Assembly: GCA_018240405.1 (NCBI GenBank)
Contig: JAFEFW010000617.1
Coordinates: 1 to 64,000, forward strand
Source: Pseudomonadota bacterium
GTDB taxonomy: Bacteria > Pseudomonadota > Alphaproteobacteria > Acetobacterales > Acetobacteraceae
Reading direction: 5' to 3'
DNA: 64,000 nt
Positions 1,469 through 34,682 of the stretch are shown here, one piece after another; the first letter of the stretch is position 1; every line of letters begins with the position of its first letter. Below the pieces are notes generated by a model, which was not told where the DNA came from, ran no database searches, and worked only from the letters and a program-made list of their open reading frames with translations. Position numbers and translations under genes: made by a program.

Positions 1469-1544
1469 GGGGCTGTAGCTCAGTTGGGAGAGCGCCTCGT
1501 TCGCAATGAGGAGGTCAGGGGTTCGATTCCCCTCAGCTCCACCA
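1469..1544 (+). tRNA. tRNA-Ala (anticodon CGC)
   Basis: A 76-nt cloverleaf with CCA encoded. The acceptor arm begins GGGGCTG and ends CAGCTCC-ACCA. The D arm contains AGCTCAGTTGGGAGAGC and the T loop is TTCGATT. The anticodon loop is TTCGCAA, giving CGC at positions 34-36, which reads the alanine codon GCG. The anticodon stem CCTCG/TGAGG closes with one G-T pair. Confidence 0.95.
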
Positions 1545-2278
1545 TCCCGCGTTCCGGACCGCAGTTCCTCCAGATGCACCAGCTCCGCAAGGCGCGCGCA
1601 CGGCAGCGCACCGATTTGCCGGGCTGGCCTACTGGCCGTCGGGCCTCACCGGAGATGCTTCCACGACACACCGCCGTCTGGTTCGATGATGTTTCGGCCG
1701 ACATTGAAATAGACGGCTTGGGAGCCGCCCGAAGCCGCATCACATGTAGTTGAGGATGTCGAAGCTGCACCCGCGGATCATCGCCAGTGCTGTCTTTGCC
1801 GCTGCAACCCCGGAGTTTGTAGCACTTGATACTCAATCATGTATGACCCTACCACCGACGACGAAAGCTATGGCCGGTGATACGCGAAACCGGACCTCCT
1901 GGACCGTCTGGCCAGCGAGTTGGCGGGCGGTGATGATATGACAATCTGTCCGCTTTCCGTTTCTGATCCTTGCTTGAGAAGTCGCAGGTCCAGCCGCCTG
2001 GGCAGCCTGTGTTCCCAGAGGATGCCCTCGACCACGAAAGCCGTCTCGCGCGCCCGACCGTCGCCCGATGCAAGAGCCCAATTATCCATTTGCTCAGCAA
2101 ACGCCTGTTGTGCAGCCTGCTGATCCGCCGTCAGTTGTATTGCCCGAAGTATCTTCTTCGTCGTCGCACCAAGATGGGGTCCGCTGGTGGCATTGACCCT
2201 GACAACCATTGCAATGGCCGCGCCTGATGACCCTGCGTCCGCGCTCTTTGCCGATGCTGCTGCAGGCCAGCGGAGGCG
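1545..2278. other. 734-bp gap after tRNA-Ala, poorly coding
   Basis: No gene is convincing. The only stretch with protein-like composition is on the reverse strand, from an ATG at 2209 to 1868 (113 codons, including TADQQAAQQAFAEQMDNWAL). Near its end a neighbouring frame continues more sensibly (ARQLAGQTVQEVRFRVSPAI) to 1833, so it may be a decayed, frameshifted gene. No integrase, direct repeat of the tRNA end or inverted repeats were seen. Confidence 0.4.
1833..2209 (-). pseudogene. Possible decayed hypothetical gene (frameshifted)
   Basis: From the ATG at 2209, about 85 codons look coding (Ala/Gln-rich helix, then ARETAFVVEGILWEHRLPRR). Around 1950 the frame turns arginine/serine-rich, while the neighbouring frame yields a plausible beta-rich tail ending at 1833. 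One indel would join the two. No family was recognised and no good ribosome binding site is present. It could equally be chance open reading frame in G+C-rich DNA. Confidence 0.25.
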
Positions 2279-5285: not shown

Positions 5286-7025
5286 TTAGCTGTTGTCCTG
5301 CGCCAACTGGTTGCGGCGACGGATCGCCGCGCCGAGGATGTCGCCCAGCGACGCGCCGGAGTCCGAAGACCCGTATTCGGCCATCGCCTGCTTCTCTTCC
5401 TCGATCTCCTTGCCCTTGATGGTCAGGGTCAGCTTGCGGGCGGCACGATCGATCGCGGTGATGCGGGCATCGACCTTCTCACCGACGGCGAAGCGTTCCG
5501 GCCGCTGATCGGCCTTGTCGCGTGCCAGTTCGGCCCGGCGGATGAAGCCGGTCAGCACGTCGTTGACCTTCACCTCGACGCCGTTGGCCTGAACCGCCGA
5601 GACGATGCAGGTCACGATGTCGCCCTTGTGGACGTTGCCCAGGACGGTAGCGGCCGGGTCATCGCGCAGCTGCTTGATGCCGAGGCTGATGCGCTCCTTC
5701 TCGACATCGACGTCGAGCACCTTGGCCTTGACGGTCTGGCCCTTCTCATAGCCAGCCATCGCAGCCTCGCCGGACTCGTCCCAGGACAGGTCGGACATGT
5801 GCACCATGCCGTCGATGTCCGCAGACAGGCCGATGAACAGGCCGAACTCGGTGATGTTGCGGATTTCGCCCTCGACTTCGGTGCCGATCGGGTGATCCTC
5901 GACGAACTGCTCCCACGGATTGCGCTGCACCTGCTTCAGGCCCAGCGAGATACGGCGCTTGGAGCTGTCGACGTCCAGCACCATGACGTCCACTTCCTGC
6001 GAGGTAGAGACGATCTTGCCAGGGTGGACGTTCTTCTTGGTCCAGGACATTTCGGATACGTGCACCAGGCCCTCGACCCCCGGCTCCAGCTCCACGAAGG
6101 CGCCGTAGTCGGTGATGTTGGTGACGCGGCCGGTGTAGCGAGCGCCCGGCGGGTATTTCGCCGCCACGCCTTCCCACGGATCGGTCTCGAGCTGCTTCAT
6201 GCCCAGGCTGATGCGCTGGGTGTCCGAATTGAAGCGGATCACCTGCACCTTGACCTGCTGGCCGATGGTCAGCGCTTCGGACGGGTGGTTGATGCGGCGC
6301 CACGCGATATCCGTGACGTGCAGCAGGCCGTCGACGCCGCCCAGGTCCACGAACGCGCCGTAGTCGGTGATGTTCTTCACCACGCCGTCCAGGATCATGC
6401 CTTCCTTCAGGCCCTGGATCAGTTCGCTGCGCTGTTCCGCGCGAGTCTCTTCCAGCACGGCGCGGCGGGACACGACGATGTTGCCGCGAGCGCGGTCCAT
6501 CTTCAGGATCTGAAACGGCTGCGGCGTGCCCATCAGCGGCGCGACGTCGCGCACCGGACGGATGTCCACCTGGCTGCCCGGCAGGAACGCCACGGCGCCG
6601 CCGAGGTCGACGGTGAAGCCGCCCTTGACGCGGCCGTAGATCGTGCCGTCGACGCGCTCCTTCTGGTCGAACGCCTTCTCCAGGTTGGTCCAGGCTTCCT
6701 CGCGGCGCGCCTTCTCCCGCGACAGGATGATGGCGCCGTCGCGATCCTCATACCGCTCGACATAGAGTTCGACCAGGTCGCCGGGCTTCACTTCCGGCTT
6801 GGCACCGGGCGGACCGAATTCCTTCAGGGCGACGCGGCCCTCGGACTTCAAGCCGACATCGACGACGGCGAATTCATCGGTGAGGCGCACAACACGGCCC
6901 GTGACGACGGAGCCGTCGAAGCCGGTGTCTGTGCCGAGTGTTTCCTCAAGGAGAGAGGCGAAGTCTTCGCCTTTGAAGTGGTCTTGCGCAGGCTCATGCG
7001 CGCGCGCGGCGGCTTGTAATGCCAT
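5286..7025 (-). CDS. rpsA: 30S ribosomal protein S1
   Basis: Binds mRNA during translation initiation. I chose the ATG at 7025 (MALQAAARAHEPAQ), giving 579 residues; longer in-frame readings to 7211 have non-coding composition. Six S1/OB repeats are visible. The last four share a clear pattern such as GVVKNITDYGAFVDLGGVDG, GRVTNITDYGAFVELEPGVE and GEIRNITEFGLFIGLSADID. The first two are more divergent, as in other S1 proteins. The C-terminus is acidic and Ser-rich. It heads the cluster with sppA, ihfB, the LapA-like gene, pyrF and trpF; cmk, often upstream, is absent. Confidence 0.97.
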   Translation of the reverse strand: MALQAAARAHEPAQDHFKGEDFASLLEETLGTDTGFDGSVVTGRVVRLTDEFAVVDVGLKSEGRVALKEFGPPGAKPEVKPGDLVELYVERYEDRDGAIILSREKARREEAWTNLEKAFDQKERVDGTIYGRVKGGFTVDLGGAVAFLPGSQVDIRPVRDVAPLMGTPQPFQILKMDRARGNIVVSRRAVLEETRAEQRSELIQGLKEGMILDGVVKNITDYGAFVDLGGVDGLLHVTDIAWRRINHPSEALTIGQQVKVQVIRFNSDTQRISLGMKQLETDPWEGVAAKYPPGARYTGRVTNITDYGAFVELEPGVEGLVHVSEMSWTKKNVHPGKIVSTSQEVDVMVLDVDSSKRRISLGLKQVQRNPWEQFVEDHPIGTEVEGEIRNITEFGLFIGLSADIDGMVHMSDLSWDESGEAAMAGYEKGQTVKAKVLDVDVEKERISLGIKQLRDDPAATVLGNVHKGDIVTCIVSAVQANGVEVKVNDVLTGFIRRAELARDKADQRPERFAVGEKVDARITAIDRAARKLTLTIKGKEIEEEKQAMAEYGSSDSGASLGDILGAAIRRRNQLAQDNS

Positions 7026-7183
7026 GTGGTTGGTATGTTCCGTTACGGGTGCGCCGGGCAGCAGGCCCGGCTGGTTGCCGTGGTATGCGCGTCTCCGAAT
7101 GCGGAAACACGGCTTGCCCGCGTCGCACAGGGCGCGGGCCGGGTTGGGGATGCGGCGCCAAATATGGGTAGCGTCGAGTCGGG

Positions 7184-7211
7184 GAGATAGAGGATTCGGT
7201 TGGCGAGTCAA
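7184..7211 (-). promoter_or_regulatory. Sigma-70-type promoter of the rpsA cluster
   Basis: Read leftward, TTGACT (7211-7206) and TATCTC (7189-7184) are separated by 16 bases. Transcription would begin near 7177, leaving a leader of about 150 nt before the rpsA ATG. Such a leader is long enough for autoregulation by S1, as known in enterobacteria; that is inference here. Confidence 0.5.
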
Positions 7212-10100
<2,889 letters not shown>

Positions 10101-31223: not shown

Positions 31224-32651
31224 TCAATCCTCGACCTGCATTCCCTCCATCGGTAATGCTGTGCCGACCAATGGCAGTCCGCGGTTGCTTCGGCCCCCGT
31301 AAATCTCCACCTCATCAAGGTGAAGGTGCCCCGCGCCCCGGAGCCGTATCATAACGAATCGGACGACGTCGCCGCCCTTGGACGGCACAATCAACGGCGT
31401 TCCGTCCGTCCCAAACGGGCCTGTGACATGCGAATACAGGATCGTCCATCCCGCGCCGTCGCCGCTGCCAAGGATGTCGAGTTCGGCCGCCCGGGCGGCT
31501 AGGTCAGGATTGTCGGCCCGGTTGTAGATGCGGATTTCCGCAAGCTCATAGGACGCCAGCAGATCGACGATCCACCACGGCCCGTTCTCCATGCGCGTGT
31601 GGAACCCGTACAGGCCGGACCGGAGGCCATTATTGCCGCCGCCCGCCGTGCGGCTACCGGGTGGTTCGGCACTATCCGGCTCGTAAACCGAACTTTGCCA
31701 GGACGGCTTATTCAGCGCCACATTCTCGTGCCCCAACGCCGTGTTGGACGGGCTCGGGCTGAGTCGCAGACCCGCGGCGGTGTAGTGGTGCCAGTACTCC
31801 GCGAGGTAGCTGTCGTAGACTGCATTCGTCCCGGCCAGGATCTCCCGGTAATAGCCGGAATTGTAGGCGTGCCGCCACATGTCGCCATTGGCGAAGCCAC
31901 CGCGGCGCCAGCGACGCAGGAAGTCTTCCTCTGACTTGAACTGAAAGTGCGCGATGAAGGCCTTTGTAAGAAGTGCCTCGGCCAGCCCCGGCCGATTGAC
32001 GAACGGGTAGGTCGATTCCGGAAATCCATAGGAATAGCCTTCCATCGACTGATGCAGTACATCGCGGCAGCGCACGCCAGGCAGCCGGAAATTGTCGAGG
32101 AAATGCCAAAATGCGCCCAGGCCTGCCTGATAGCCTTGCTTCACCATACCGGGCTCAATAGCGGCGGAACGGCACAACATCTTGGTATGGATGTCGACGC
32201 CGCGTGACCTGCGGAGGTAGGACGTCAATACGGGCCCCTGCGCCCTCTGCACGTGGCCACTGTTGCCATAAACCAACCATTGAAAATACAGGCAATCCGT
32301 ATTGTGACTATATTCAGTCATGAACGCATGTATATTGTTGATACCAGTCAATATGAAGAATTCGTCAATGTCGAGGAAGCTGAACCACTCGGTCTCCTGC
32401 TTAAAGTTTTCCAGGAAGTGGAAGTAGATCGCGGCCTGCTCGCCCGCCTTCGGCCAGTGGCGGAACGTGACGTAGGGACGCGGGCCATGAACATACGCCG
32501 CAACCGCCCGGTAGAGCGCCGCTGGGTCATCGTCGTTGGAGTACAGGTAGATGTGATCGAAGCCAATGGATCGGTGATATTCGACCCACTCCTGGATCTG
32601 CGTCTCTTCCCAGCGCGCACAGGCAACGAGTGAATAGCGGTAGCGAGGCAT
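31224..32651 (-). CDS. GT92/DUF23-like glycosyltransferase with C-terminal F-type-lectin-like domain
   Basis: The product has 475 residues. Residues 1-290 are a GT-A-like transferase of the DUF23/GT92 type: RYSLVACARWEETQIQEWVE, then IGFDHIYLYSND and the metal-binding FLDIDEFFIL. Residues about 310-455 form a jelly-roll domain: NVALNKPSWQSSVYEPDSA, then FHTRMENGPWWIVDLL and IRIYNRADN. The fucolectin motif HX26RXD is present exactly; the last basic residue is two positions later than in the eel lectin (X6 instead of X4 before Arg). A general F5/8C carbohydrate-binding module is the fallback. There is no signal peptide. It converges with the fucosyltransferase-like gene. Confidence 0.75.
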   Translation of the reverse strand: MPRYRYSLVACARWEETQIQEWVEYHRSIGFDHIYLYSNDDDPAALYRAVAAYVHGPRPYVTFRHWPKAGEQAAIYFHFLENFKQETEWFSFLDIDEFFILTGINNIHAFMTEYSHNTDCLYFQWLVYGNSGHVQRAQGPVLTSYLRRSRGVDIHTKMLCRSAAIEPGMVKQGYQAGLGAFWHFLDNFRLPGVRCRDVLHQSMEGYSYGFPESTYPFVNRPGLAEALLTKAFIAHFQFKSEEDFLRRWRRGGFANGDMWRHAYNSGYYREILAGTNAVYDSYLAEYWHHYTAAGLRLSPSPSNTALGHENVALNKPSWQSSVYEPDSAEPPGSRTAGGGNNGLRSGLYGFHTRMENGPWWIVDLLASYELAEIRIYNRADNPDLAARAAELDILGSGDGAGWTILYSHVTGPFGTDGTPLIVPSKGGDVVRFVMIRLRGAGHLHLDEVEIYGGRSNRGLPLVGTALPMEGMQVED

Positions 32652-32702: not shown

Positions 32703-34682
32703 TCACTCGGCTTCGGCAGGTCCGTCCGGTGCGTCCGTCTGCAACCGGGCGCGCACCCGGGCGGCCAGTTCCTCCAGCGGGAACGGCTTGCGGATCACCT
32801 CCATGCCCGCCGGGAGCGCGGCGTTATCCAGTGCGCGGCCGGCATAACCCGTGATCAGCAGCACTGGCAGGCCCGGCCGTATGGCGCGTGCGGCTTCTGC
32901 CAGTTGCCTGCCGTTGATGCCGGGCAGGCCCACATCCGTGATCAACAGGTTCAGCCGGATGCCGGACTGCACAATGCGCATTCCGGACGGACCATCCGCC
33001 GCCTGAATGATCCGGCACCCAAGGTCGCGCAGCGCCTCGACAGCAAGATTACGGACCCCGTCTTCGTCTTCAACGACAAGAATGGTGGCCCCGGCGACGG
33101 CGCCGTCGGCCGGGTTGGCAGGGCTGCTCGCCGACCCGGGCGATGCCTGCTCCTCAATGCGCTCGTGCCGCGGCAGAAACAGATGCATGGTGGTGCCGAC
33201 GCCGACGCTACTTTCCAGGCGAACAAACCCGCCGGATTGTTGCACAAAGCCGTAGATCTGCGACAGACCCAGACCGGTCCCTTCACCGATCGGCTTGGTG
33301 GTGAAGAACGGCTCGAAGGCGCGCTCCAGCACGTCCGGCGGCATGCCAGTGCCGGTATCTGCGACGGTAATCTGCACCCAACCGCCCACCTCCGGCATGC
33401 CGTCTTCGCGCGCGTCGTCCTCGGACACCTCACGATCGACCGTGGTAATGGTCAGGGTGCCGCCGTCTGGCATGGCGTCGCGGGCATTGATGGCAAGGTT
33501 CAACAGCGCGCTTTCCAGTTGGTTTGGATCGCACAGCGCCGACCAGGTGCCGTCGTGCAGTTGCAGCTCCAGCCGGATTTCAGGTCCAAGAGTGCGGCGG
33601 ATCAGTTCTTCCATACCGCGAATCAGCGAGTCCGGCTCGACCGGGCGCGGCTGCAGCGCCTGCCGCCGGGCGAAGGCCAGCATGCGATGGGTAAGGCGGG
33701 CCGCACGTTCGACGGCCTGGCGGGCGCCAGCGATGTGCCGGGTGAGATCCTCTGTTCGGCCCTGGCTGATCCGACGCTCCATCAGCTCAAGGCCACCGCC
33801 GATGCCCTGCAGCATGTTATTGAAGTCGTGGGCAATGCCGCCGGTCAGCTGTCCCACCGCTTCCATTTTCTGCGCCTGGTGGAGGCGTTCCTCGCTGGCG
33901 CGCAACGCGGCCTCGGCGCGACGGCGGGCGGTGACGTCGGTAAGGGCGGAGAGTACCCAGGCGCGGTCGCCCCGGCGCTCCAGCCGGGCCGATACCTGGC
34001 CTTCAATAATCGCGCCGTCACGCGCGATAAAACGCCGCTCCACATCGTGCAGCGCACCGCGCGTCAGCAATTCCGTACGCTCCGCGTCCAGCGCGCGACG
34101 ATCGCCTGGCACCAGAAAATCGCTGACCGGGCGGCCAACGACCTCATCGCGTCGGTAGCCGAGGAGGGATAGCCACGAATCGGAGACGCCGGTGATGACG
34201 TCGCCGTTGTCGAGCGTGTAGAGCGGCACCGGTGAATATTCAAAGCGTGCGCGATGGTGCGATTCGCTCTCCCGCAAGGCAGCGTTCGTTGCCTCCCATT
34301 GGGCGGGCGACGGTAGCGCCAGTGCGGCTGGCATCAGCCACCAGAGGGCTATGGCAGTGGTTAGAGACGCAAGTGCAGTGAGCGCCTTTATCATTGCCTG
34401 GATGCCGTAAGCCGGCTGCCAGAGGGTGATGACGTCGAGGATATGGGTCGCGCCGCACAGCAGGATGAATGCAGCGAACAGCAGGAAGACCGGGGGGAAG
34501 GCAAGGTCGCGCCGGCGGCGTGCAAACACCAGCAGGAAGATCGGTATGGTGAAATAGGCAATGCCGATGGCCAGGTCGGACGCCGCGTAAGTCCGGATCA
34601 GCCAGGGGCTCCAGAGCAGGCAGAACCCATGCGGCGTAAGGCCGTCCGAAGCGAACAGCCAGGAGGCAAGTTTCTCGAACAT
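32703..34682 (-). CDS. Hybrid histidine kinase with ethylene-receptor-like membrane domain
   Basis: I chose the ATG at 34682, giving 659 residues. Residues 20-120 hold three membrane helices strikingly like the ETR1 ethylene-binding domain. The copper ligands of ETR1, Cys65 and His69, correspond to Cys76 and His80 in LLCGATHILD; ETR1 Asp25, Tyr32, Ile35, Pro36 and Ile62 correspond to Asp36, Tyr43, Ile46, Pro47 and Ile73, all with the same offset of 11. A PAS domain follows (about 142-255), then a HisKA domain with phospho-His285 (GGIAHDFNNML), an HATPase domain (LNLAINARDAMPDGG, TGTGMPPDV, GEGTGLGLSQ) and a C-terminal receiver (LLITDVGLPG). Ligand and output are unknown; no response regulator gene is adjacent. 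Confidence 0.9.
   Translation of the reverse strand: MFEKLASWLFASDGLTPHGFCLLWSPWLIRTYAASDLAIGIAYFTIPIFLLVFARRRRDLAFPPVFLLFAAFILLCGATHILDVITLWQPAYGIQAMIKALTALASLTTAIALWWLMPAALALPSPAQWEATNAALRESESHHRARFEYSPVPLYTLDNGDVITGVSDSWLSLLGYRRDEVVGRPVSDFLVPGDRRALDAERTELLTRGALHDVERRFIARDGAIIEGQVSARLERRGDRAWVLSALTDVTARRRAEAALRASEERLHQAQKMEAVGQLTGGIAHDFNNMLQGIGGGLELMERRISQGRTEDLTRHIAGARQAVERAARLTHRMLAFARRQALQPRPVEPDSLIRGMEELIRRTLGPEIRLELQLHDGTWSALCDPNQLESALLNLAINARDAMPDGGTLTITTVDREVSEDDAREDGMPEVGGWVQITVADTGTGMPPDVLERAFEPFFTTKPIGEGTGLGLSQIYGFVQQSGGFVRLESSVGVGTTMHLFLPRHERIEEQASPGSASSPANPADGAVAGATILVVEDEDGVRNLAVEALRDLGCRIIQAADGPSGMRIVQSGIRLNLLITDVGLPGINGRQLAEAARAIRPGLPVLLITGYAGRALDNAALPAGMEVIRKPFPLEELAARVRARLQTDAPDGPAEAE

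Follow-up and report, generated by a model that had tools for sequence, protein, structure and literature searches.

Domains of the ethylene-binding type were described in a 2020 review as occurring in many proteobacteria and cyanobacteria, where the outputs that they feed vary widely (PMC7700396), and the structure of the corresponding domain of plant ETR1 is stated to have been elucidated (PMC10452086). AzoEtr1 of Azospirillum brasilense, an alphaproteobacterium, has been studied directly: residues 1-130 of the protein bind 14C-ethylene, disruption of the gene abolishes ethylene binding by the cells, and neither the D35A nor the C75A version of AzoEtr1 restores biofilm formation to the disruptant, as reported in PMC11819568. 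The initial annotation of the locus described here, which mentioned homologues in cyanobacteria, regarded a proteobacterial one joined to its own receiver as worth testing; a proteobacterial ethylene receptor is not new, as AzoEtr1 already binds ethylene (PMC11819568). The protein encoded at the locus is an ordinary member of a family that is already known in proteobacteria and of which one member has been shown to bind ethylene.

The window, by which is meant the whole stretch of 64,000 nucleotides that was analysed, carries an open reading frame for an ethylene-receptor-like hybrid histidine kinase (Table 1). The frame starts with an ATG at 34682, and GGAG is located four bases upstream. The domains follow one another in the order ETR1_N, PAS, HisKA, HATPase_c and Response_reg, each scoring above its Pfam cut-off, and the succession of PAS, kinase and receiver domains that had been read from the sequence initially is thus confirmed by the Pfam matches and by the H-box at His285. 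The ETR1_N match has an E value of 4.1e-34 and 117.2 bits compared to a Pfam cut-off of 27, and the same domain scores 122 bits in a whole-genome profile search which detected a single ETR1_N protein, that of the window, in its own genome. When other membrane sensor families were sought with HMMs, ETR1_N was the sole Pfam family over residues 28-123 at E <= 0.1, which rules out assignment of the domain to a different family. The motifs of the kinase and receiver are intact: His285, the N, G1 and G2 boxes, the acidic cluster, Asp583, the Thr residue and Lys632. The NCBIfam CckA models match the kinase-receiver part of the protein only, and as they score 320.6 and 300.6 bits where 1000 is required, a CckA orthologue is ruled out. 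Judged from its sequence, the gene most likely encodes a bacterial membrane ethylene receptor of the ETR1/SynEtr1/AzoEtr1 kind that possesses its own phosphorelay.

Table 1. Features of the putative ethylene receptor gene and of the gene downstream; coordinates are window positions.
Feature	Coordinates	Strand	Basis
Hybrid histidine kinase gene, ethylene-receptor-like, 659 aa	32703..34682	-	ORF translation
ETR1_N ethylene-binding domain (predicted), aa 28-123	34314..34601	-	Pfam PF25487
Asp36 codon (= ETR1 Asp25)	34575..34577	-	Alignment
Cys76 codon (= ETR1 Cys65, copper ligand by homology)	34455..34457	-	Alignment; role as given in PMC11819568
His80 codon (= ETR1 His69, copper ligand by homology)	34443..34445	-	Alignment; role as given in PMC11819568
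Lys99 codon (= ETR1 Lys91, helix 3, receptor output)	34386..34388	-	Alignment; role as given in PMC11819568
PAS domain, aa 144-255 (approx.)	33918..34253	-	PF00989, PF13426, PF08448 and PF08447 above cut-off
HisKA, aa 277-342, phosphoacceptor His285	33657..33854	-	PF00512, 30.2 bits (cut-off 26.9); H-box HDFNN at 285
HATPase_c, aa 385-505	33168..33530	-	PF02518, 72.7 bits; N, G1 and G2 boxes intact
Receiver (Response_reg), aa 534-644, phosphoacceptor Asp583, Lys632	32751..33083	-	PF00072, 57.9 bits; motifs
Glycosyltransferase (GT2_4/GT92) with F5/8 type C carbohydrate-binding domain	31224..32651	-	Pfam; downstream of kinase, 51-base gap

The seven residues that are involved in ethylene binding by ETR1 are all present in the window protein, as initially claimed, at D36, Y43, I46, P47, I73, C76 and H80, among which Y43, I46, P47 and I73 are the counterparts of Tyr32, Ile35, Pro36 and Ile62 in the ETR1 numbering of the initial annotation. 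Nothing is thus missing from the membrane site, which had first been described as near-complete. The helix-3 lysine that is tied to receptor output in ETR1 (K91) is also present, as K99. The constant offset of 11 between the two proteins that had been noted agrees with the published correspondences of D25, C65 and H69 in ETR1 with D35, C75 and H79 in AzoEtr1 (PMC11819568), but the helix-3 lysine departs from it with an offset of 8. AzoEtr1 was read from the A. brasilense Sp7 plasmid record NZ_CP012915.1 (L052) as 525 residues from a chosen Met; this frame contains D35, C75, H79 and K98, matching the published positions, and these residues align with D36, C76, H80 and K99 of the window protein. 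The proposal that the likeness exceeds the general resemblance of three-helix sensor domains is upheld by the strength of the ETR1_N match and by the loss of one or more of the seven residues in 13 of 58 relatives of the same Pfam family. The seven-residue site is informative because of these losses, although its completeness in the window copy is, as judged by comparison of the domains, the normal state of the family.

The relatives comprise 58 other ETR1_N domains obtained from genome searches, contig profile searches and plasmids, a set of best matches that is biased towards conserved residues. The window copy (L001) and the two pieces of one split gene (L019 and L020) were left out before counting, and five places in the class survey without a locus and eight of the 18 plasmid records also lie outside the conservation rows. 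All seven residues are kept in 45 of the 58 domains, both the Cys and His copper ligands in 52, and the helix-3 lysine in 50; 11 of the 14 rows from the same genus have all seven residues. The 13 departing rows (L013, L014, L017, L018, L031, L035, L045, L046, L047, L048, L049, L051 and L054) are mostly among the weaker matches and include L045, the match to which starts late, so that no residue is aligned with the Asp and Val stands in place of the Tyr. However, the Cys residue is absent from L051 (114.2 bits) and the Asp residue from L054 (103.3 bits). Thus, a high HMM score is no guarantee of the site. In a tree of 55 ETR1_N domains, built additionally without L014, L047, L048 and L049, 33 of the 52 inner branches were open with bootstrap not settled, and the window copy was unplaced.

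Certain copies of the domain have unusual forms. Genome G010 of the same genus encodes a hybrid kinase (L069:9938-12184(+), the same copy as L018) in which both copper ligands are lost and the seven sites read DWVAILR, and has a complete ETR1_N copy (L010/L068) too. Four short proteins consist of ETR1_N alone (L078:3093-3566(+), L079:1051-1689(+), L076:1978-2361(-) and the L014 match at 1501-1749(+)); the Cys and His residues are kept in each and Asp is replaced by Asn or Gly. Two of the four are located on contigs filed as viral, and L079 is near helicase- and DNA-methyltransferase-like genes identified with PHROGs. The sensor and kinase are split into two genes in the Bacteroidota genome of Maribacter sedimenticola (L024), where a stand-alone ETR1_N domain at 5953-6447(+) in a 165-codon frame is followed directly by a separate PAS-HisKA-HATPase gene at 6451-7956(+). 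Both Bacteroidota rows have Arg at the position of the helix-3 lysine.

A survey of 385 genomes of the class detected the ETR1_N domain in 28, and 14 of 60 relatives' genomes also have it, with the window's own genome counted in each case. Its occurrence in the genus is patchy, at 10 of the 33 other genomes. A profile search of 14 control genomes detected none. The 18 plasmid records with the domain include ones from Azospirillum, Rhodovastum, Novosphingobium, Blastomonas, Rhizobium, Eleftheria, Acaryochloris, Kovacikia and Pseudanabaena, and contig profile searches revealed genome carriers in Bdellovibrio, Duganella, Flammeovirgaceae and Maribacter. The attached receiver, to which the initial annotation drew attention, is common among relatives: ETR1_N, kinase and fused receiver are combined in seven of 15 same-genus loci, as determined by Pfam for L062, L063, L064, L068 and L069 and by BLAST alone for L065 and L066. 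In the other eight loci the kinase has an adjoining receiver gene (L070, L073 and L074) or no receiver was detected (L071 and L075), L067 encodes an ETR1_N-PAS-GGDEF-EAL protein, L076 is a stand-alone domain of 128 residues, and L077 is a split, frame-broken gene. Fused receivers also are found in Rhodovastum (L053 and L054), Duganella (L022) and, by BLAST, Eleftheria (L057). The broken hybrid kinase gene L077:5757-7797(-) of genome G030 is interrupted in several frames, which could reflect decay or an assembly error, and the same genome has the intact copies L063 and L064. On plasmid p2 of Novosphingobium sp. ES2-1, which is typed as conjugative, an ETR1_N kinase gene with an adjacent response regulator gene (L056:13-5462) lies beside a type II Cas9 gene.

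An AlphaFold2 model of the window protein, generated without copper from a shallow alignment of five sequences and of moderate confidence (mean pLDDT 73.2, pTM 0.46), has three long helices at residues 26-56, 63-87 and 90-122, followed by a fourth helix at residues 126-149. In hydropathy analysis helices 1 and 2 are clear peaks, and helix 3 is weak (best value 1.61). A structure search with the ETR1_N domain provided no useful match, returning one chain at an E value of 9.6.

As the window protein shares its site residues with AzoEtr1 and has intact kinase motifs, it most likely is an ethylene receptor that depends on copper and passes phosphate to its own receiver. In the three transmembrane helices, presumably in a dimer as in plants, Cys76 and His80 would be the ligands of the copper, and Asp36 would position His80. 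Binding of ethylene to the copper would shift the helices, and this movement may be relayed to the kinase by Lys99, the following helix at residues 126-149 and the PAS domain. The kinase would phosphorylate His285, from which phosphate would pass to Asp583 of the fused receiver and then, through a phosphotransfer protein, perhaps the ChpT-like protein of the genome, to a response regulator. Ethylene probably turns the kinase off, by likeness to ETR1, SynEtr1 and AzoEtr1; the Discussion of PMC11819568 proposes that ethylene is an inhibitor (inverse agonist) of bacterial receptor kinases.

The ChpT-type protein (PF10090, 32.5 bits against a cut-off of 22.9) is a possible next step in the phosphorelay. 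Its gene is on a different contig from the kinase gene and nothing ties the two; among the 14 control genomes, Caulobacter alone has a ChpT-type match. A search of the window's genome for 16S gave none, and its assignment to the Alphaproteobacteria is drawn from this ChpT-type protein, the CckA-like kinase and the full-length relative in Rhodovastum. A separate protein of the same genus (L067:6876-9641(+), the same copy as L016, in genome G021) has the arrangement ETR1_N-PAS-GGDEF-EAL by Pfam with all seven residues, and possibly links ethylene directly to cyclic di-GMP. Such a link would be notable in view of the reported fall in cyclic di-GMP that ethylene causes in A. brasilense (PMC11819568, Discussion). 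That ethylene might, given the fused receiver and the likeness of the kinase-receiver half to CckA, act through a ChpT-type phosphorelay on the cell cycle or motility, while L067 reads the gas into cyclic di-GMP, such that one sensor serves different outputs within one genus, is a speculative scenario to which we give little chance.

The genes around the kinase were also considered. The glycosyltransferase gene downstream is a possible but unproven operon partner, and a conserved operon of the two is unsupported as no such neighbour is present in 30 related loci, some of which span only 3-5 kb. Eight proteins encoded by neighbouring genes in the window had no matches at E <= 1e-4 among the open reading frames of at least 90 codons in these 30 loci. 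Other neighbours in the window include a DHDPS-family gene and a gene for a DegP-like protease, and none is tied to ethylene, copper or plant association by Pfam or in the 30 related loci. An ACC-deaminase-like match in the window's own genome (G000:C24:2705-3685(-)), in what presumably is a protein of the kind named D-cysteine-desulfhydrase-like, scores 268 bits against an NCBI cut-off of 392 and thus does not support a lifestyle connected with plant ethylene.

Most family members retain the seven residues irrespective of the ecology of the host, so that these residues alone do not prove ethylene to be the natural ligand. The copper site might be retained for another signal, such as copper(I), oxygen or redox state, or another small olefin or gas including acetylene and carbon monoxide, with ethylene binding being incidental. 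The occurrence of ETR1_N in Bdellovibrio, Bacteroidota and cyanobacteria, beyond plant-associated bacteria, fits with such a role, although ethylene can reach cyanobacteria and soil bacteria too. Redox could be sensed by the PAS domain of the protein, and the effects of AzoEtr1 deletion exceed those of ethylene, for which the authors allow that the protein may have roles beyond ethylene (PMC11819568, Discussion). Nevertheless, AzoEtr1 has the same residues, binds ethylene and is present in cells that respond to the gas (PMC11819568), and we consider it unlikely that the window protein is primarily a receptor for something else.

It also can be envisaged that the protein is one of many paralogous kinases that senses through its PAS domain, with ETR1_N a vestige that merely holds it in the membrane. 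The kinase part matches 26 other places in its own genome at E <= 2.3e-64 with 37-60% identity, and this large paralogous set points to fusion of the sensor domain with a type of kinase that is common locally. The patchy occurrence of ETR1_N in the genus and the retention of kinase and receiver in the same-genus protein without either copper ligand (L018/L069) also are compatible with an anchor. However, the seven residues and the lysine have all been retained in the window copy, as would not be expected of a mere anchor, and most same-genus rows likewise keep the full set. A purely anchoring role thus is very improbable. Ethylene binding by the window protein, as predicted from its sequence, is likely.

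Among known proteins, NBY65_RS31115 of Rhodovastum atsumiense (WP_150045232.1, L053) has the same ETR1_N-PAS-HisKA-HATPase-receiver arrangement and all seven residues, with 42.1% identity to the window protein over 98% of the query. It differs in its location on plasmid RHOApc with integrase and transposase genes on either side, and its annotation reads simply 'PAS domain S-box protein'. Arabidopsis ETR1, which was compared by residue positions and not by sequence, shares the ethylene-binding residues and, like the window protein, has a kinase followed by a receiver. In place of PAS, ETR1 has a GAF domain (in part from PMC5285503), and plants signal mainly via a Ser/Thr kinase and not via a histidine kinase (PMC11819568, Discussion). 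SynEtr1 of Synechocystis is, by description, similarly a bacterial ethylene receptor with phosphotransfer to a response regulator, but its target is the separate regulator slr1213 (PMC11819568). AzoEtr1 shares with the window protein the seven residues and the lysine in a three-helix domain, identical at 55 of 114 aligned ETR1_N positions, that is followed by PAS, HisKA and HATPase. AzoEtr1 is described as a protein of 525 residues that has no receiver, the end of its gene being overlapped by a separate gene for one (PMC11819568), whereas the receiver of the window protein is fused. The window protein does not represent a new kind of system as bacterial ethylene receptors already were established by AzoEtr1 and SynEtr1. 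If it binds ethylene, it would add one more lineage to the bacteria that sense this gaseous plant hormone, in this case with sensor and receiver in one chain, and would offer a simple single-protein system in which to ask whether ethylene switches a bacterial receptor kinase off.
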